NCBI GenBank assembly: GCA_015655535.1
Contig: JAATEW010000328.1
Span: 1-35,513, forward strand
Source: Hyphomicrobiales bacterium
Lineage (GTDB): Bacteria > Pseudomonadota > Alphaproteobacteria > Rhizobiales > Beijerinckiaceae
Direction of reading: 5' to 3'
DNA: 35,513 bases
The position numbers were made by a program, and so were the translations under genes. Below are positions 1 through 34,725 of this stretch, piece after piece; position 1 is the stretch's first letter; every line of letters starts with the position of its first letter. A model generated the notes under the pieces. The model saw only the letters and a list, made by a program, of their open reading frames with translations, made no database searches and was not told where the DNA came from.

Positions 1-330
1 ATGTGCCGCCGCCCTGCACAGGCGTGTCGCCCGAGCCCGTCGTCGGATCGCCGGTCGTGGGTGTATCGCCAGCATCTCCGGTCGATGTGCCGCCACCCTG
101 GATCGGGGTATCGCCTGAGCCCGTCGTGGGATCGCCGGTCGCAGGCGTACCGCCAGCATCTCCGGTCGATGTCCCGCCGCCCTGCACCGGCGTATCGCCT
201 GAGCCGGTTGTTGGATCGCCCGTCGCAGGCGTACCGCCAGCATCTCCGGTCGATGTACCGCCACCTTGCACCGGTGTGTCGCCTGAACCTGTCGTCGGAT
301 CACCGGTTGAGGGGGCGGCGCTAGAGCCTG
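1..330 (-). repeat. 84-bp (28-aa) in-frame tandem repeats in the candidate T1SS substrate
   Basis: The core agcatctccggtcgatg recurs at about 71, 155 and 239, exactly 84 bp apart; flanking partial units continue to the left edge. Confidence 0.9.
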
Positions 331-964
331 TCGTATGGTCTCCGGTTGATGGCGTGCCGCCGGTCGATGTCCCGTCACCATGGATCGGGCCGCCGGCAGG
401 GCTGCCCCCTTGTGCTGGCGGATTGGCGGCGTCGGCTGCAAGGCCCGGTGCTGCGGGCGTATTCCCATCCGCCGAAGCGCCGCCACCACCACCGCCACCG
501 CCACCGCCGTGCGATGGATTGGTCGGGACTGGACCAATGGATGGAGGAGGCGAGGCGACATTCACGCTTGGCACAAATGCAGCCGATCCCAGGGCTATAT
601 GATCGAGCGATCCTCCTGCGTGCAGGGAGACCGCGGATATGTCGGAAGGGTTAGTTGCGTCCTCTGCGCCAGAGTTGCCGCGCAGCGATGCGCCGTCATC
701 ACCGGCGCGAGCTTCGGCAACCGTCTGCTCTTGGTCTTGTGAAGGCGGCGCTGCTTGATCCTGTTCCGGCTGTGCGCCGCCCGCTCCGGCCCTGCTGGCA
801 TCGCTTGGGGCCGCGGCCTCACCTTCAACACCTGTGTCCCACCCGATCGCTGCCTCTTCCCGCGCGGGGTCAGGTCGCCCGATGGGTTTCTCAACGGCTT
901 TTTTTAAGCCTGAGTCCGATGGTTTCGGAGTTTTGCCGGCCACTTCCTTCTTGAACTTGGCCAT
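1..964 (-). CDS. Candidate T1SS substrate / repeat-containing surface protein, N-terminal part only (runs off left edge)
   Basis: Absent from the ORF track, but the minus frame starting at ATG 964..962 (MAKFKKEVAGKTPKPSDSGLKKAVEKPIGRPDPAREEAAIGWDTGVEGEAAAPSDASR...) has no stop to position 1. SD-like AGGAGG lies just upstream. Contains a poly-Gly run and 28-aa repeats (GGTPATGDPTTGSGDTPVQGGGTSTGDA). Immediately downstream of hlyD-like and ABC genes on the same strand. Confidence 0.8.
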   Translation of the reverse strand, partial: MAKFKKEVAGKTPKPSDSGLKKAVEKPIGRPDPAREEAAIGWDTGVEGEAAAPSDASRAGAGGAQPEQDQAAPPSQDQEQTVAEARAGDDGASLRGNSGAEDATNPSDISAVSLHAGGSLDHIALGSAAFVPSVNVASPPPSIGPVPTNPSHGGGGGGGGGGASADGNTPAAPGLAADAANPPAQGGSPAGGPIHGDGTSTGGTPSTGDHTTGSSAAPSTGDPTTGSGDTPVQGGGTSTGDAGGTPATGDPTTGSGDTPVQGGGTSTGDAGGTPATGDPTTGSGDTPIQGGGTSTGDAGDTPTTGDPTTGSGDTPVQGGGT

Positions 965-976
965 CGCCGATACCTC

Positions 977-2323
977 CTAACGCTCCCGGAACGCGGTATC
1001 CAAAGTGTAGTAAATAGGCTTCAGCAGATATTGGAATATGGTCTTCTCGCCCGTCAGAATGGTTGCCTCACCGGTCATTCCGGGTGTCACCACATGCGCT
1101 TTGTCTACACCTACGTAGGGTTGGTCGAGTTCGATTTCGACCAGGATAAAGGGCGCTTGACCTGGACTGTTTGTCGTATTCTGAGCCGCGATACGCACAA
1201 CCTTGCCGGGGATCGTGCCGAAACGGCTGTAATCGAAAGCGTCGGACTTCACGCTGGCTTTCTGGCCGACGCGCACGAAACCGATGTCGCGCGGCGAGAC
1301 ATGCGACTGCATCAAGACGCCGCCATCCGTCGGCACGATCTCGCATACCGTTCCGCCGGCCGGAATCACCGTGCCGATCGGTGTTTCGGAGATTTTTTGC
1401 ACGATGCCATTGACCGGCGACCGGACCTCGATGTCGCCGGAACGGCTTTGATAGGCGGCTTGCGTCGCCTTGAGTTCGTTCATTTGCTCCATGATGTCGG
1501 CCCGCTGATTGCGGGCATCGGCCGCGGACTTGGCAATGATGGCCTCGCGCTCCGCATCGAGCCGCTTGATGCGTGACTCATGCTGGTCGATCGAGGCCGT
1601 GAGCTGTGCGTGGACCCGCTGGCCTTGAGCTGCCTGCTCTTCGACCTGGGCGAGACGATTGCGCGCGATGACACCAATATCCGCGCCTTCACGTATGCGT
1701 TTCACAAGGTCCTGGCTGGCCGTCATGCTGGTCTTGGCGAAAGGAATCTCGTCCTCCGCGGCGGCAAGAGCCGATTTTTCTTCGTCGACCTGCCGGTTGT
1801 TCTGTTCCAAGTTGCTGTCGAGCTGACGCACTTGCCCTTTATGCAACGAGAGCGCTTCAGCGACTTGCGCGGGATATTGCGTCTCGAATGGCTTGAAGTT
1901 GGGGTCGCGGCGGTCGGCGAAGGCGTCGAGCCGCTCCATCTGGATTTGCAAATAGGCCATGCGCACTTGCGTGCGTTCGATATCGCGGATCAAATCGGTG
2001 GCACGAAACTTGGCGATCAATTGCCCGGCTTTCACGCGTTCGTCGTTATGCACCAGCATCGACGAAATTGCGCCGCCCTCCGGTGTCTGAATGACCTGGA
2101 CGCGTTGCACCGGTATGAATTCGCCACGCGCGCGCGCGATCTCGTCAACCTTGACGACAAAGGAAAGGCCCAAAAGAATCGCCACGAGGCCGATGACGCC
2201 GATCAGCAGCGCGCTAACGCCGCGCGTGACCTGAACGTAATCGACGTCGCTGCCGATCTGCCCGGCGGGCCTGCGCTCCTGGGCGACGGAAACCGCGATA
2301 TTGTCTCCCTTACGAATGTCCAC
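977..2323 (-). CDS. HlyD family type I secretion periplasmic adaptor (membrane fusion) protein
   Basis: 448 aa; one N-terminal TM segment, long coiled coil, lipoyl-like segment (VQVIQTPEGGAISSMLVHNDERVKAGQ...) and C-terminal RSPVNGIVQKI...GGTVCEIVP typical of HlyD adaptors. Confidence 0.93.
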   Translation of the reverse strand: MDIRKGDNIAVSVAQERRPAGQIGSDVDYVQVTRGVSALLIGVIGLVAILLGLSFVVKVDEIARARGEFIPVQRVQVIQTPEGGAISSMLVHNDERVKAGQLIAKFRATDLIRDIERTQVRMAYLQIQMERLDAFADRRDPNFKPFETQYPAQVAEALSLHKGQVRQLDSNLEQNNRQVDEEKSALAAAEDEIPFAKTSMTASQDLVKRIREGADIGVIARNRLAQVEEQAAQGQRVHAQLTASIDQHESRIKRLDAEREAIIAKSAADARNQRADIMEQMNELKATQAAYQSRSGDIEVRSPVNGIVQKISETPIGTVIPAGGTVCEIVPTDGGVLMQSHVSPRDIGFVRVGQKASVKSDAFDYSRFGTIPGKVVRIAAQNTTNSPGQAPFILVEIELDQPYVGVDKAHVVTPGMTGEATILTGEKTIFQYLLKPIYYTLDTAFRER

Positions 2324-2332
2324 GCGATCCTC

Positions 2333-4525
2333 CTATGCGAATTTCGCCGCGGATTGCACGATCGGGCCGGCATGCCGGACATTGCCGCGTTCGATGATCA
2401 CTATCTGATTGCTGCTCTTGATGTGGGCGGTCGAATAGGGCGTCCATATCACCGTCGTTCGGCCACGAATGGAATCAAGATAGGCTTCGACCTTTTTGTC
2501 CCAGAGCGGATCGCCGCCGATGCCGACGCCGTCGAGCAGAAGCACTGCCGGTGCAGCGATCGTCGCCGCGACGAACGCAACGATGTAGCGGAACTTCAAT
2601 TCGGCGTGGTCTACGCTGAATGAATTGAGGCGGCGATCCAACACGCTCGCGGGCGCGCCAGCAAAAACCGGCCATGTCTCCCACTCTGGGCCGAGCACGC
2701 GCGCGAAGGCCGATAAAGCTTCATCGTCCTGCAGCGCGGGAACCCGCAACCGCAGATATTCGCGCACCGAGATCGGCAGAGCGGGGACCACTTGCGGCAC
2801 GTAGCCGATCCAAGCCCGGTATTCTACCGGATCGAACTGCCGGATGTCGCGGCCATTGACGAGCACGCGCCCCGATTGCGGCCGGCGCAAACCGGCGAGA
2901 CATTCGAGCAGTACCGTCTTGCCGCCCGCGTTCGGACCGACAATCGCAACGCGCGCGCCGGCTGGCGTCGAGAACGACACGCCGTTCAATGCGGCTTCCT
3001 GATCGACGTCAGGCCGATAATAGAGGCGGTCAACAGTGAATGCGACTTCGGTGAGCCCGAACGGGCTCGCAATCTCGACGCTTGCGCGTTCTGTCGGCGT
3101 CGCCATCAATTGATTGAGCTGGCTTATCGAACTCCCGACCTGTCGCAGCCGGACGAGAGAGCTGAAGGCCTGCTGCGCCGGCACGACGATCCGCCAGATC
3201 AGCATCATCGATGCGATCAATCCGCCCGAATTCATAGTACCATCGAGCACCAGCAAGATACCGACGCACATGGTTGCAAGCACGGTGAGCATGCTCAGAA
3301 TCTGGCCGATCGCCTGCGCGCGGGCTATGGCGATCGCGTAATCGCAATTCCGCGCGGCCGCGTCGCGCGCGTGTTCGGCGAACTGATTGAGCCACTGGCT
3401 TCCCGCGCCTACGCGATAGAAGGCGTTGATCCCAAGCAGAGCGGCGCCGGCCTGTTCTTCGAGCCGCGCCGAGGCAATTCCTGCGGCGGAAGCCTTGCTT
3501 GAAACATAGTCCGCCGTGGGAAAGGCGAGGGCCGCGTAGCAAAGCAGCGCTATGATGGGCACGAAGACCAGCCATCCGCCAAACAGCGCGATCACCAGGA
3601 CAAAGATCACGATGAACGGATAGTCGATCAGATAGGCTCCGCCGACGCCACTCAAGAACTGCCGCGCATTTTCGAAGCTGCGCATGCGAATGACGTTGTT
3701 CTGAACCCCGAGCTTGGCTATTGTATCGAGCGGAAAGCTCAGCATCTTGCGCATCGTCGTCTCGCCGATACGCGTGCCGGCCCAGCTACCCAAACGCGTG
3801 GTCACCAGCTGGCGCCCGATCCGCAGCCCCCAACTCCCAAGAATGGCAACGGCCGCGAGCAATGCCATCCCCCAAATGGTGTCGATGGCTTCCGACGGAA
3901 TGACGATGCTGTAGACAGCCATCGTATAAAGAGAGACGGCAAGCGCCAACAAGTTGATGAGCGTGCTCATCGCGAAGAGCGCGAAGAGTGCGTCGCGCAC
4001 GCGTTCGAACAGGCCGCGGAACCAGTTGGGCCGCGCTTCGTCGATCGGGTGGAAATCAGTGGCCGGGTCGATAGCCAGGATGGTGTCGCCGGAGGCCGGC
4101 TGAAATGTCGCTTGCGTGCCGGCTATCAGCCAGCGATCCCTGCCGTCCGGCTGGCCGAGATAGACGGCGACGTCGTTGCCATGCAGGACAAGGCTTCCGG
4201 CCCGCAGCCGCATCGTGTCACGGGCCTGACCCTTCGCCGTGACGTGACGGACGCGGAAGCCGATCTCCGCCAGAAGCCGTTCGAGATGCGCGATTGAAAA
4301 ACGCACATCCTGCTGCGGCAGCAAAGCGGCAAGACGGCGGCCGGTCCCTGGCCATCCCAATGCCACCAGCATCGGCGGCAAAGCGGCGGCTATCGATGAA
4401 TTGGCTTGGCGTTCAGAACCGACAACGTCGCTCAAGCGCTTGAGCCAAATGGCTTCGCTCCAGCCCGCCGGCAACTGCGGTGGAGACGGTTGAGGGACGA
4501 GCGCCAAAGGTGCCGCATTATCCAT
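2333..4525 (-). CDS. T1SS-type ABC permease/ATPase with N-terminal extension; NBD keeps Walker A but has a degenerate signature and Walker B
   Basis: 730 aa; N-terminal C39-like-sized domain, multiple TM segments, then VAIVGPNAGGKTVLLECLAG (Walker A) and IGYVPQ (Q-loop). Confidence 0.88.
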   Translation of the reverse strand: MDNAAPLALVPQPSPPQLPAGWSEAIWLKRLSDVVGSERQANSSIAAALPPMLVALGWPGTGRRLAALLPQQDVRFSIAHLERLLAEIGFRVRHVTAKGQARDTMRLRAGSLVLHGNDVAVYLGQPDGRDRWLIAGTQATFQPASGDTILAIDPATDFHPIDEARPNWFRGLFERVRDALFALFAMSTLINLLALAVSLYTMAVYSIVIPSEAIDTIWGMALLAAVAILGSWGLRIGRQLVTTRLGSWAGTRIGETTMRKMLSFPLDTIAKLGVQNNVIRMRSFENARQFLSGVGGAYLIDYPFIVIFVLVIALFGGWLVFVPIIALLCYAALAFPTADYVSSKASAAGIASARLEEQAGAALLGINAFYRVGAGSQWLNQFAEHARDAAARNCDYAIAIARAQAIGQILSMLTVLATMCVGILLVLDGTMNSGGLIASMMLIWRIVVPAQQAFSSLVRLRQVGSSISQLNQLMATPTERASVEIASPFGLTEVAFTVDRLYYRPDVDQEAALNGVSFSTPAGARVAIVGPNAGGKTVLLECLAGLRRPQSGRVLVNGRDIRQFDPVEYRAWIGYVPQVVPALPISVREYLRLRVPALQDDEALSAFARVLGPEWETWPVFAGAPASVLDRRLNSFSVDHAELKFRYIVAFVAATIAAPAVLLLDGVGIGGDPLWDKKVEAYLDSIRGRTTVIWTPYSTAHIKSSNQIVIIERGNVRHAGPIVQSAAKFA

Positions 4526-6122
4526 GGCGAGGTCTCCTCTCGATACGGATTTTCTGATCGGCGAGTTGCACCAGGTCGGGATTGCCGGACACCATGAAGA
4601 TTGTGGTGCGTCCTTTGAGCCCTTTTAGAATGTCCACGAGCCGGCGCATGCCATCGAGGTCGAGCGTGCCGCCGACCTCATTGAGGCAGAGGATCGCGGG
4701 GCGCCGTACCAAGGCACGGATCAAGCCGATGCGAACGGCGATGCCGGGGCTTACGATATCGGCGCCGCCCGGGCCGAGCGCCGTCATGACTCCCTGCCGC
4801 AAGCTGTCGACAAAAGCGTCGAGCCCAAGATACGGCATAAGCCTCATCGCATCGGCATTATATTGCGGGCTGAACAAGGTGAGATTTTCGAGTAGCGAGC
4901 CGCGGATCAGTTCGGGATGGGCGCTCACCATCGCGATTTGCTGTTTGAGAGTCTGGCTGTCGTAGGCCGAAGGTGGACGGCCATCGAATGTGATCGTAAG
5001 ATCCAAGGCATCGTCGAGTTGGGCTACCATATCGAGCATGGCGGTCGCCGTGATCTGGTCGGATGCCTCGATAAGGACGACGTTGCCCGGCTCGATCGAT
5101 ACTGTTTCGCCTTGGATCGCCGCGCCGCTTATCGCGATGGCACCACCGCGAAAGACCTGTTCGCCGCTGCCGCTCCACAAAGGCGCCAAGGGCAAGGACA
5201 AGACATCTTCGATCTTCCGTTCCGCCGCATCACGATGACCAAGCCTGGTCAAATAAGCGAAAGCCGCCATGGCGGGGGCGATCGATCGTCCGGCGATCAA
5301 TGTGCAGGCCGCGAGGCCGCCAGTCGTGATTTGGCCGTCGATCACCATGAAAGCGCCGAAGGCGACGACGGCGACCGTCGATAGCTGACTGAGAAGAGCG
5401 CCGTTCTCGCGGATCAATGCCATATGATTTTCCACGCGCGCGCTCGCATCCATCGTGCGCACGACGGCGTCGCGATAGCGTTGGGTCAACATGGTCTCGG
5501 CCGCCATGGCCTTGACCTCAACAATGCCGCCAAAGATTCCCCAGGTCAGGTCGCGGCGATGGGCTTCGGCCGCTTCCAAGTCGAGCACCGCGCGATTACC
5601 CGCGCGCATGACGATCAAGGCGGCGATCAAGGCGACGAAAGTCAATGCGAGCGGGATCAGCGCGAGCCAAGTGCCGATGTACGCAACGAGCCCGATATAG
5701 ACAGCCACGAATGGCAATTCATGCAGGGCCGCGGCGGCATTGCCGGACCAAAAATCGCGGACCTGGCCGACGGAACGCACGGCGTCCAAGAGCGCCGGCG
5801 TGCCCATGGTATGAACCGCCTTGCCGCTGGCCCGCATGAGACGCTCGAAAAGACGCAACGTCATCCGGCTTTCGAAAACCGCGCCGACATAGGCAAACAG
5901 CACGGCGCGGCCATAGCGCAGCAAGGCTTCCAAGAGAACGGCAATTGTGACGCCGATCACCAGCACGAATGTCGTGGAATAGGCGGCGTTGGGCAGGATC
6001 CGGTCGTAGGTCTGGAGAAGCCCAAGCGGGACGGCAAGCGAAAGCACATGCGCGCTGAGCGAGGTGACGACCGCCAGCGCGGTTACACCTACAGGCTTTA
6101 CCTCGTCTACGTAGTGCGACAC
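4518..6122 (-). CDS. T1SS-type ABC transporter subunit with Walker A-less NBD
   Basis: 534 aa; N-terminal TM domain typical of T1SS permeases (AVPLGLLQTYDRILPNAAYSTTFVLVIG) followed by an NBD-like domain. Overlaps the next gene by 8 bp. Confidence 0.87.
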   Translation of the reverse strand: MSHYVDEVKPVGVTALAVVTSLSAHVLSLAVPLGLLQTYDRILPNAAYSTTFVLVIGVTIAVLLEALLRYGRAVLFAYVGAVFESRMTLRLFERLMRASGKAVHTMGTPALLDAVRSVGQVRDFWSGNAAAALHELPFVAVYIGLVAYIGTWLALIPLALTFVALIAALIVMRAGNRAVLDLEAAEAHRRDLTWGIFGGIVEVKAMAAETMLTQRYRDAVVRTMDASARVENHMALIRENGALLSQLSTVAVVAFGAFMVIDGQITTGGLAACTLIAGRSIAPAMAAFAYLTRLGHRDAAERKIEDVLSLPLAPLWSGSGEQVFRGGAIAISGAAIQGETVSIEPGNVVLIEASDQITATAMLDMVAQLDDALDLTITFDGRPPSAYDSQTLKQQIAMVSAHPELIRGSLLENLTLFSPQYNADAMRLMPYLGLDAFVDSLRQGVMTALGPGGADIVSPGIAVRIGLIRALVRRPAILCLNEVGGTLDLDGMRRLVDILKGLKGRTTIFMVSGNPDLVQLADQKIRIERRPRHG

Positions 6123-6529
6123 CGAGATACCCCCTACATGAGCTGTTGGGGGCTGCCGGCGAAAGATTAAAACGATATTGCGTTTTTGTCTTGCTTCAAT
6201 TCTAAGCGTGCTTAAGCTTAAAGCTGTGATGTTGATTTAAAATTGCAATATGTAACGCGTCGACTCGCGCTGGCTTATGATGTTGGGGCTCTCGCTTTTG
6301 TTTCAAATGGTCTGCAAGAAGGTACCATGTCGATTAGGGACTTGGCACAATGCTGGCGAGTCGTAACGAGCGCGCACGACGCAGTATGAACCACCGCCGC
6401 AAGCACCGGGCTATGGCGAGCCTCGAAGCGAAGCGAATGAACAAAGTTCTTAATCCCCGGCGGGAGCCACGTTCGCGGGCCTCATGAAACGCGCCGGAGA
6501 ACACGTGATCATCTCGTCGCCCCGCGCCC

Positions 6530-7142: not shown

Positions 7143-8969
7143 GTGACGGCTGTGGACCTAGGCCCTGCATGGCTGAAACGGACATTCGGTGTAGGCGCCG
7201 GCACCGTCCCGGCAAATGACGCGATCCGTTCCGCCCTGACCCTGCCGCTCGTGCTTGGCGCGGCCTTCATGCTCACCGGCCAGGAAGCAACGATTTATGC
7301 CGGGCTCGGCGCGCTGCTGGTCGTGCTCGGCGAACGCGGCGGCACGACAGGCCAGCGCATGTTCAAGGCCGGCGCAGGCTTGCTCACCGGCACTTTCGCC
7401 ATGGCCTTCGGGCCGCTCACCTCCGGCACGGGTTTGCTGCCGCTCCTGGCCGTCGCGGGCTTTGCGCTGATTTCGGGCGTACTGAGTTCCTTCGGCACGG
7501 CGCTTTCTTTCGCCGGTATGCAGCTTCTCGTGCAAATGTCGATCGCGGGCGGCCTCAGCATTCCATTGAGCCAGGGCGCGAAATTGGAGGCCTATATAGC
7601 AGGCGGCCTCGCGGCATTGGCAGGCGTGTGGATTCAAAGCGCCCTGGAAGAGACGGAGCGCCAATATGGTGAGCGTCTTGCCACCGTGCTCGAAGCCCTC
7701 GCCCTTTGGGGCCGGTCCGTCTCCGCCAATTGGGTGCTGTCGGATGCACAGCCGGTGCGCGCGCTTCGCTTCGCGGTCGATGCGCGTCTTGCCGAGGCGA
7801 GCGACCTGATCCTCACCGCGCGGCCCCTGCGCAAAAGCCGGCAATCGGCTCTGGCGCAGCTCAGTGCCTTGCGAGACCAAATATCCGTGCAGGTCACGGA
7901 GGCTTTCACGTCGTCCGCACGGCCGGACAAGATGGTGCTCGCCGCGATCGAAGAAAACGCGGCGAAGCTCAAATCCTTTCGGCCGGACGCGCCTCATTCG
8001 GCCGAGCCGCTGCCTGCGGCGAGGCCGGCCATTCCGATCCACTGGCTGATCGAACAATCGCTCTTCGCGCGCGCGACATGGGTCTTCGTGCTGCGGCTCG
8101 TGATCTGTATGGTCATCGCCGAAATTATCCGTCAAGTGACGCCGCTCGGCCATGCCTATTGGATCCTATTGACCGTCGCGCTTGTCCTAAAGCCCGATCT
8201 CGCCTCCGTCTTTTCACGCTCGCTGCAACGCGGTTTCGGCACGGCCCTGGGCCTGCTGATCGGCTGGATCGCGATGTTTCTCTCGCCCGGCCTCGTCATT
8301 CTTCTGGTGATAGCGCCGCTTTGCGCCGCAATCCCCTATTCCGTGCGACGCAATTACGCTTGGTTCTCCGTCATCATCACGCCGCTCGTGTTCATCCTGC
8401 TCGATTTCGGCGGGCCTGTCGGCACGGACGTGCTTGTCCAGCGGCTTGATCATACGGCAACCGGGTGCGGCATCGTTCTTCTTTTCGGCTATGCGCTTTG
8501 GCCTGCGACATGGCGGCCGAGCGCGCGGCCCGAGATCGCGGAGATCTGCGATGCGCTCGCGGCTTTTATAGATTGCAAAGGCGCCACGACAGTCCAGCGC
8601 GCCGATGCGCGGCTTGCTATCGCACGCAAGATCGCGGCGCTGCGCAGCCGCGCGGCGCAGGCCTTGAGCGAACCGGAACCGATGCGGATGCGGGCGCAGC
8701 ATTGGAGCGATGTCACCGAAGCGCTCGACGATGTGCTCGTCAAAGCGGTGCTTCACGATCCGGCGGCCAACGCGGAGACCGTCGAAGCGCCCAAGCAAAT
8801 GTTGCATGTGCTGGCGTCGCGCTTGCGCGAACGCGCAGCGATTCGCCAGTCTTTGCCGGCGCCGGGGCATGATGCGCTCGCCAAAAGCGTGGACGCCTTG
8901 GGACATAGGATAGCCGAGCTTCGCCTTTATGGTGAGGCCGTGCAAAACCCCGCGCATCACGCGTCATGA
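7143..8969 (+). CDS. FUSC family inner-membrane protein (putative aromatic acid exporter-like)
   Basis: 608 aa; two membrane blocks with repeated FUSC-like organisation (second: HAYWILLTVALVLKPDLASVFSRSLQRGFGTALGLLIGW). GTG start. Confidence 0.82.
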   Translation: MTAVDLGPAWLKRTFGVGAGTVPANDAIRSALTLPLVLGAAFMLTGQEATIYAGLGALLVVLGERGGTTGQRMFKAGAGLLTGTFAMAFGPLTSGTGLLPLLAVAGFALISGVLSSFGTALSFAGMQLLVQMSIAGGLSIPLSQGAKLEAYIAGGLAALAGVWIQSALEETERQYGERLATVLEALALWGRSVSANWVLSDAQPVRALRFAVDARLAEASDLILTARPLRKSRQSALAQLSALRDQISVQVTEAFTSSARPDKMVLAAIEENAAKLKSFRPDAPHSAEPLPAARPAIPIHWLIEQSLFARATWVFVLRLVICMVIAEIIRQVTPLGHAYWILLTVALVLKPDLASVFSRSLQRGFGTALGLLIGWIAMFLSPGLVILLVIAPLCAAIPYSVRRNYAWFSVIITPLVFILLDFGGPVGTDVLVQRLDHTATGCGIVLLFGYALWPATWRPSARPEIAEICDALAAFIDCKGATTVQRADARLAIARKIAALRSRAAQALSEPEPMRMRAQHWSDVTEALDDVLVKAVLHDPAANAETVEAPKQMLHVLASRLRERAAIRQSLPAPGHDALAKSVDALGHRIAELRLYGEAVQNPAHHAS

Positions 8970-9068: not shown

Positions 9069-9671
9069 ATGCGCTTTCGTATTTTTCCCGCCGCGACCGC
9101 ATTGAGCACACTGATCTTGTTGAGCCTTTCCGTTCCCGCCTTCGCGCAAGGCAGGCCGCCCGCCGCGCCGCCGCCCGGCGCTGGTCCCCAAGGCGGACCG
9201 CCGCCCGGCGCACAACCCGAACAGCCCGCGGTGAAACAGATGGCGCTTACCGATAAGCAGATCGAAGACTCGCTCGCGGCCAATGCGGAAATCAGCCCGA
9301 TCATCGATAAATTGCCCGAGGACGCGGCGCCCGATCCCAAGATCATCGCGCAGCTCGACGGGATCGCCAAAAAGCACGGTTTCGCCAGCTTCGCCGACTA
9401 TGACAATGTCACCGCCAACATCAATCTCGTGCTCGCCGGTTTCGATCCCGAGACGAAAAAATATGTCGGCCAGGACGTTGTCCTGAAAAAGGAAATCGCC
9501 GAAGTGCAGGCCGATAAGAAAATGGCTCCCGCCGAGAAAAAAGAAACGCTGTCCGAATTGACCGCGGCCTTGAAATCGGTCACGCCGCTGCAATTCCAGT
9601 CGAACACCGCCGTGGTCGGCAAATATTACGACAAGCTCAGCGAAGTCATGGGCGGCCAAGACAAGCAGTAG
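9069..9671 (+). CDS. Exported hypothetical protein with Pro/Gly-rich N-terminal region
   Basis: 200 aa; clear signal peptide (ATALSTLILLSLSVPAFAQG), then PPAAPPPGAGPQGGPPPGAQPEQP, then an alpha-helical domain. Confidence 0.75.
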   Translation: MRFRIFPAATALSTLILLSLSVPAFAQGRPPAAPPPGAGPQGGPPPGAQPEQPAVKQMALTDKQIEDSLAANAEISPIIDKLPEDAAPDPKIIAQLDGIAKKHGFASFADYDNVTANINLVLAGFDPETKKYVGQDVVLKKEIAEVQADKKMAPAEKKETLSELTAALKSVTPLQFQSNTAVVGKYYDKLSEVMGGQDKQ

Positions 9672-34642: not shown

Positions 34643-34694
34643 ATATGCCTCCGTCCGAATGAGACTAAATATAGCCTCGGATGGAACTGGCCGC

Positions 34695-34725
34695 AAGCAT
34701 GCCCCAAGCATGCCCCAAGCATGCC
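34695..34725. repeat. 11-bp tandem repeat (aagcatgcccc, about 2.8 copies) upstream of the RES/Xre operon
   Basis: aagcatgcccc aagcatgcccc aagcatgcc, about 55 bp upstream of the antitoxin start. Confidence 0.8.

Follow-up and report, generated by a model that had tools for sequence, protein, structure and literature searches.

Main finding

Two adjacent genes of a Hyphomicrobiales bacterium probably encode a heterodimeric type I exporter that has one residual ATP-binding site, at which ATP hydrolysis would be very slow or absent. The genes lie on the minus strand of a 35,513-nt stretch of contig JAATEW010000328.1 (assembly GCA_015655535.1), hereafter the window, and encode two unlike ATP-binding cassette (ABC) exporter halves. 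Subunit A (4518–6122, GTG start, 534 aa) consists of a transmembrane domain (ABC_membrane, 3e-21) and a degenerate nucleotide-binding domain (NBD), and subunit B (2333–4525, ATG start, 730 aa) of a C39-like domain followed by a transmembrane domain and an NBD (ABC_membrane and ABC_tran). To judge from the recurrence of the motif state in close relatives from other soil bacteria and from the selection acting on both NBDs, the pair appears to be a genuine, functional variant, as opposed to a decaying one.

Motif states of the two nucleotide-binding domains

The motifs were called from an alignment with the canonical type I secretion system (T1SS) ABC protein of the same genome (contig C24) and with relatives. 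Their conservation was followed in the window clade, which included 13 A-B pairs, 11 from Bradyrhizobium (among them one isolate, B. iriomotense) and the two of the window genome. In B, the Walker A motif GPNAGGKT (2915–2938, minus strand as for all motifs given here) follows the pattern GP[NS][AG]xGK[ST] in 13 of the 13 pairs and the Q-loop GYVPQ (2792–2806) is unchanged in all of them. The Walker B motif of the same subunit reads LLLDGVGIGGD (2510–2542), with the catalytic Glu replaced by Gly in every pair, and the position of the LSGGQ signature is occupied by VDHAELKFR (2588–2614). At the H-loop position, IWTPYSTAH (2423–2449), the window has Tyr, as have four of the 13 pairs altogether, the others having His (eight pairs) or Ser (one pair). 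Subunit A has EASDQITATA at the Walker A position (5040–5069) and AMVSA at that of the Q-loop (4920–4934; MVSA, with Gln replaced by Ala), the Lys and the Gln, respectively, being absent from A in all 13 pairs. Its H-loop position reads FMVSGNP (4578–4598), with Gly for His, and its Walker B and D-loop LCLNEVGGTLD (4659–4691), with Asn for Asp and the Glu kept. The signature VSPGIAVRIG (4725–4754) is found as [VI]SPG[IM]A[AV]RI in 13 of the 13 pairs.

Both open reading frames were found at the coordinates of the original prediction, and the alignment agreed with its reading of the 730-aa protein, according to which Walker A and the Q-loop are kept and the Walker B Glu, LSGGQ and the H-loop His are lost. 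For the 534-aa protein the proposed losses of Walker A, the Q-loop Gln and the H-loop stood, while the Walker B Glu proved to be kept and SPGIAVR looks retained instead of lost. It appears to be a variant of the signature typical of this family, LPxG[IVL]xQR, which is the prevailing form in A; LSGGQ itself was present in none of the 154 NBDs of the 77 complete pairs sampled from the family. Canonical exporters processed alike kept a recognisable signature, mostly LSGGQ and in a few cases SAGQ or SGGE/SGGM, which rules out an alignment artefact as the source of the signature loss. One of the sequences included among these controls, L025, proved to be a B-type protein.

Walker A, the Walker B Glu, LSGGQ and the H-loop are thus nowhere present together in a single site of A-B. 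Judging from the aligned motifs, the site formed by the A Walker A and the B signature is dead in the window clade. The opposite site, formed by the B Walker A and Q-loop with the A signature SPG[IM]A, is kept, but with Gly as its Walker B Glu residue. ABC_tran of Pfam was passed by B and narrowly missed by A (22.2 vs 25 bits). TIGR03375 was the best NCBIfam T1SS exporter model for both proteins, with 269.9 bits for B and 241.0 bits for A against a cut-off of 693.1, and neither protein exceeded the cut-offs of TIGR01842 or TIGR01846, both scores being far under them.

A family of A-B-HlyD operons

The window pair belongs to a broad A-B-HlyD operon family of Proteobacteria, which scores too low to pass any of the curated models examined. 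Altogether 80 loci of this family were fetched, and a tree was constructed of 87 sequences. In nearly all of the 80 loci B comes directly after A, and HlyD after B if the contig extends far enough. In the window the genes for A, B, HlyD and the likely substrate overlap or are closely spaced, and they have the same order in Pseudomonas, in B. iriomotense and in part of the other Bradyrhizobium. In the tree, A, B and the canonical exporters were each set apart from the rest by a single branch (support 100, 99 and 86, respectively), and the branching of B was largely mirrored by that of A. The distances within A and within B were strongly correlated (Mantel r 0.914), and 0 of 2000 permutations gave as high a value.

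Natural A-B fusions were found in 11 loci (L064, L067, L068, L092, L098, L109, L113, L115, L120, L122 and L126), and also within the window clade (L143, 7483–11346, and L150, 4375–8175). The fused reading frames are about 1064–1380 aa long, those of L098 and L115 being truncated by contig ends. Since A and B form separate clades with congruent divergence and are sometimes fused, they very likely make an obligate heterodimer, which is the simplest reading of these sequences. The original prediction had already considered that the two proteins may form such an obligate heterodimer, its composite site being unusual, and this view is well supported by these observations together with the adjacency of the genes. 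The accompanying statement that T1SS ABC proteins are normally homodimers needs correction, two-ABC type I systems such as Vibrio RtxB/RtxE being known.

The AlphaFold2 (AF2) model of A had a confidence (pLDDT) of 92.4 and that of B one of 87.0, and the NBD of A keeps its predicted fold despite the lost motifs. The best PDB fold for both models was HlyB, with PCAT1, TM287/288, TmrAB and others close behind; at the sequence level, too, a profile of A matched HlyB best. The B model aligned with full-length HlyB over approximately 696 columns. Its N-terminal domain (residues 1–167; 4025–4525, minus strand) was named C39-peptidase-like after HlyB.

Distribution of the motif losses between A and B

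Among the 77 complete pairs, 55 A and 75 B proteins retained the Lys of Walker A, 54 and 69 the Glu of Walker B, and 33 and 67 the His of the H-loop, respectively. The signature Gly was retained in 72 A and 31 B proteins. The higher retention of the Walker motifs in B and of the signature in A indicates that their joint site is the conserved one and that the opposite site is eroding. The B signature Gly was also gone in 19 of the 22 pairs in which A had no Walker A Lys, although the pairs are related and these counts do not represent independent events. Those pairs in which the A Walker A was wholly unrecognisable formed one set of 16 rows in the tree sample (support 100). In many distant family members Lys, Glu, His and the partner Gly were all retained.

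Neither site had both Lys and Glu in eight of the 77 pairs (the window, C190, L050–L053, L121 and G049, the last of which has Arg for Lys). In the sister lineages L051–L053, from Pseudomonas, Novosphingobium and Rhodoferax, the Walker B Glu position of B has Asp and the H-loop His is kept, whereas the window clade has Gly at the former position. A different combination was seen in a sister branch, L054–L060 except L057 (Shewanella, Colwellia and Vibrio), where A is without Walker A and B without the Q-loop Gln, the B Glu and His being kept; this branch is an intermediate useful for comparing hydrolysis.

Relatives of the window pair and selection

A second A-B pair is present in the window genome, on contig C190 (L009, 1084–5033), with 55 and 58% identity to the window pair. 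It has the same main motif losses, but His at the B H-loop. In a scan of named genomes the closest match was B. iriomotense (67%), and further matches were found in Pseudomonas, Novosphingobium, Rhodoferax, Shewanella, Vibrio, Magnetospirillum, Azospirillum and others. By sequence, the locus L141 and the B. iriomotense locus L050 are one and the same contig. The close form of A-B was present in 10 of the 272 Bradyrhizobium genomes scanned and in one of the 397 genomes of the window's own family, that one being the window genome itself, so that lateral transfer or misbinning is possible.

The main motif states of the window recur in 12 other homologous pairs, including that of the isolate B. 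iriomotense. Pairwise dN/dS values (NG86) within the clade were 0.08–0.30 for both NBDs, and the NBD of B was the best conserved domain. As many dS values were about 1 or above, weight was put on the close pairs L144–146 and L147–148, with dS of 0.15–0.45 and NBD omega of 0.08–0.24. On these estimates both NBDs are under purifying selection. A search of genomes for the same pair, with a check of motif conservation and dN/dS, had been proposed in the original prediction, which argued against simple decay. The 12 further pairs bear out that argument: the homologs show the same main states and not canonical motifs that had been masked in the window, and dN/dS is far from the value of 1 that relaxed selection would give.

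Operon, genomic setting and the likely exported protein

The stop codon of A and the ATG of B overlap by 8 bp, and purine-rich stretches resembling ribosome binding sites precede each start among the genes for A, B, HlyD and the exported protein, so that these genes have the appearance of a single, coupled operon. The HlyD-type membrane fusion protein (977–2323, minus strand, 448 aa) scored above the TIGR01843 cut-off (308.9 vs 208.65 bits). It is followed by the 5' part of the likely exported protein gene (1–964, minus strand), which has the start MAKFKKEV and a conserved N-terminus and is truncated at the contig end, as the window begins at base 1 of contig C257. An array of 84-bp tandem repeats is included in this gene (1–307, minus strand; TRF score 439).

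The repeat-rich, Cys-free protein encoded after HlyD is probably the exported protein, to judge from its position and its conserved ends, and is a probable surface adhesin. An N-terminus of approximately KKAIDRPIGQPDxAREExxIGW is common to the clade and, more loosely, to Pseudomonas, and a C-terminal stretch YLALAQ...DYxQxA...DQL is common within the clade. Between these conserved termini the protein bodies are unrelated (L141, L149/L156, L150/L155 and L051). Cadherin-like repeats are present in the bodies of L149, L051 and L054, and those of L141 and L150 are Gly/Asp/His/Thr-rich and of low complexity, without Cys or RTX nonapeptide arrays. No RTX arrays were seen in the large exported proteins of L141, L149/L156, L150/L155 and L051, and no Cadherin_4 domains were found in the window genome. 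The end of contig C279 (L154, 7605–9716) carries the window's 84-bp repeat and an open frame of 703 aa with the conserved C-terminus. This is probably the rest of the same gene, split over the ends of C257 and C279. The C279 part also includes a short folded-looking segment that by eye resembles a carbohydrate-binding module and had no Pfam hit.

The layout of ABC gene or genes beside an HlyD-type adaptor and a large, putatively exported protein is present in both the window and its relatives. No HlyD adjoins the C190 pair, beside which lies a divergent PAS-GGDEF gene (5195–6508). Several Bradyrhizobium A-B loci likewise adjoin diguanylate-cyclase-like genes, one of them being also near an EAL gene; PAS-GGDEF was confirmed for C190, and the other genes were assigned by sequence likeness. 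In G533, HlyD precedes a 2711-aa substrate, both lying across a diguanylate-cyclase-like gene from A-B. The GGDEF and EAL neighbours would fit regulated adhesion. The view that pairs without an adjoining HlyD are orphans was weakened, as a close HlyD was found in four of five such Bradyrhizobium genomes, in three of them about 10–12 kb off.

Elsewhere in the window, an FUSC-type efflux protein (7143–8969) is followed by a secreted-looking 200-aa reading frame without a Pfam match (9069–9671), and an 11-bp unit is repeated in 3.3 copies with 96% matches at 34690–34725 (GCCCCAAGCAT).

Proposed mechanism and alternative explanations

In the proposed mechanism, the A:B heterodimer would act in the inner membrane as the engine of type I secretion and, together with HlyD and a TolC-like channel presumably encoded elsewhere, would export the large, repetitive product of the next gene of the operon. 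ATP would bind only between the B Walker A and the A signature, drawing the NBDs together. Because the catalytic Glu is missing, hydrolysis is expected to be very slow or not to take place at all; a near-non-hydrolytic exporter had been one of the possibilities named in the original prediction. Export would then depend mainly on ATP binding as its drive or gate, with slow hydrolysis or release of the nucleotide returning the transporter to its starting state. In TmrAB, ATP binding powers one translocation step (PMC7205462), and a Glu-to-Gln mutant has a turnover of approximately half an hour (PMC7756269).

Several points weigh against such an exporter. A substitute catalytic base is possible, repeated export of long chains is hard to energise if ATP is barely hydrolysed, and the substrate was assigned from gene order and conserved ends. 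The closest relative of known structure, HlyB, pumps by hydrolysing ATP. If another acidic residue or a substrate-assisted route replaced the Glu, the heterodimer would still usefully hydrolyse ATP and be an ordinary asymmetric exporter, which we consider rather unlikely. The Asp and the H-loop His of the nearest sister lineages are in line with it, as are the eight of 13 clade members in which the H-loop His is kept, all of which carry Asp right after the Gly (LLLDGDG); moreover, ABCB1 with ABCB11-like residues at one site remains active (PMC7756269). However, no conserved acidic substitute is visible, as the variable residue of LLLDGxG is Val or Thr, and that of the H-loop position Tyr, in the window pair and in three pairs from Bradyrhizobium. 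It is also conceivable, though unlikely, that the engine works without effective hydrolysis altogether: ATP binding at the one residual site would open or gate the conduit, and export of the long repetitive chain would mainly be driven otherwise, for example by extracellular one-way binding or folding or by cycles of ATP binding and release.

That A-B is a scaffold, gate or regulator which does not energise export, the force coming from another ABC protein or from substrate folding or binding outside the cell, seems quite improbable. It would agree with the gene content of the window genome, in which two A-B pairs share a single close HlyD and a canonical T1SS ABC protein is encoded separately, with that of Bradyrhizobium G534, where a single close HlyD is likewise found for two pairs, and with the GGDEF or EAL genes beside several A-B loci. 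The canonical ABC protein of contig C24 is, however, paired with an HlyD of its own, and the strict conservation of the B Walker A and Q-loop and of the A signature suggests that nucleotide binding matters. Decay into pseudogenes is hardly credible, and neither is a masking of the motifs by errors of sequencing or reading frame, even though the motif loss is extreme and the source assembly is a draft (451 contigs, 79% complete, 3.6% contaminated). The reading frames are intact and overlapping and the predicted fold is of high confidence; the recurrence of the main states in the 12 homologous pairs speaks against sequencing or frame error as the cause of the motif loss, and the low dN/dS of the NBDs against relaxed selection.

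Comparison with known systems

In the Vibrio MARTX T1SS, RtxB and RtxE act with RtxD and TolC; both ABC proteins are needed and a heterodimer has been proposed (PMC3034196, PMC4316617). As in A-B, two unlike ABC exporter halves are combined with one HlyD-type protein. The Vibrio HlyD-type gene, however, lies between the ABC genes, while the window and most of its relatives have the order A-B-HlyD, with fusions; the substrate is a toxin in the former and an adhesin-like protein in the latter. This likeness was drawn from the description of the system. The Escherichia coli hemolysin exporter HlyB (PDB 7sgr, 8dck) shares with A-B the fold, the C39-like domain, here on B, and the HlyD partner, but is a homodimer with full motifs, whereas A-B consists of unlike halves with neither LSGGQ nor a complete catalytic site.

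Half-degenerate heterodimers have asymmetric sites, with ATP binding as a possible power stroke (PMC7756269, PMC7205462). Like TAP, TmrAB, TM287/288, BmrCD and MsRv1273c/72c, A-B has one degenerate composite site, that of the A Walker A and the B signature. In those exporters the catalytic Glu is kept at one site, whereas no site of the window clade combines the Walker A Lys with the Walker B Glu. To our knowledge, none of them has an HlyD-type partner. LssB/LapB-type exporters (TIGR03375) resemble A-B in being the best NCBIfam model of both halves and in the cadherin-like adhesin substrates of related loci, and differ in that A-B scores far under the cut-off and has two halves instead of one. 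No account of an A-B-HlyD family with degenerate NBDs was found in the open-licence papers searched, in which such a system thus appears undescribed.

The family provides a natural series, within one type of exporter and a fixed gene layout, from near-complete to fully Glu-less sites, by which a long-standing question, that of the shares of ATP binding and hydrolysis in the work of a protein exporter, becomes testable. It also suggests that engines of two parts, half of them degenerate, are common in adhesin-type secretion and not confined to MARTX systems, and that they escape the curated models examined.

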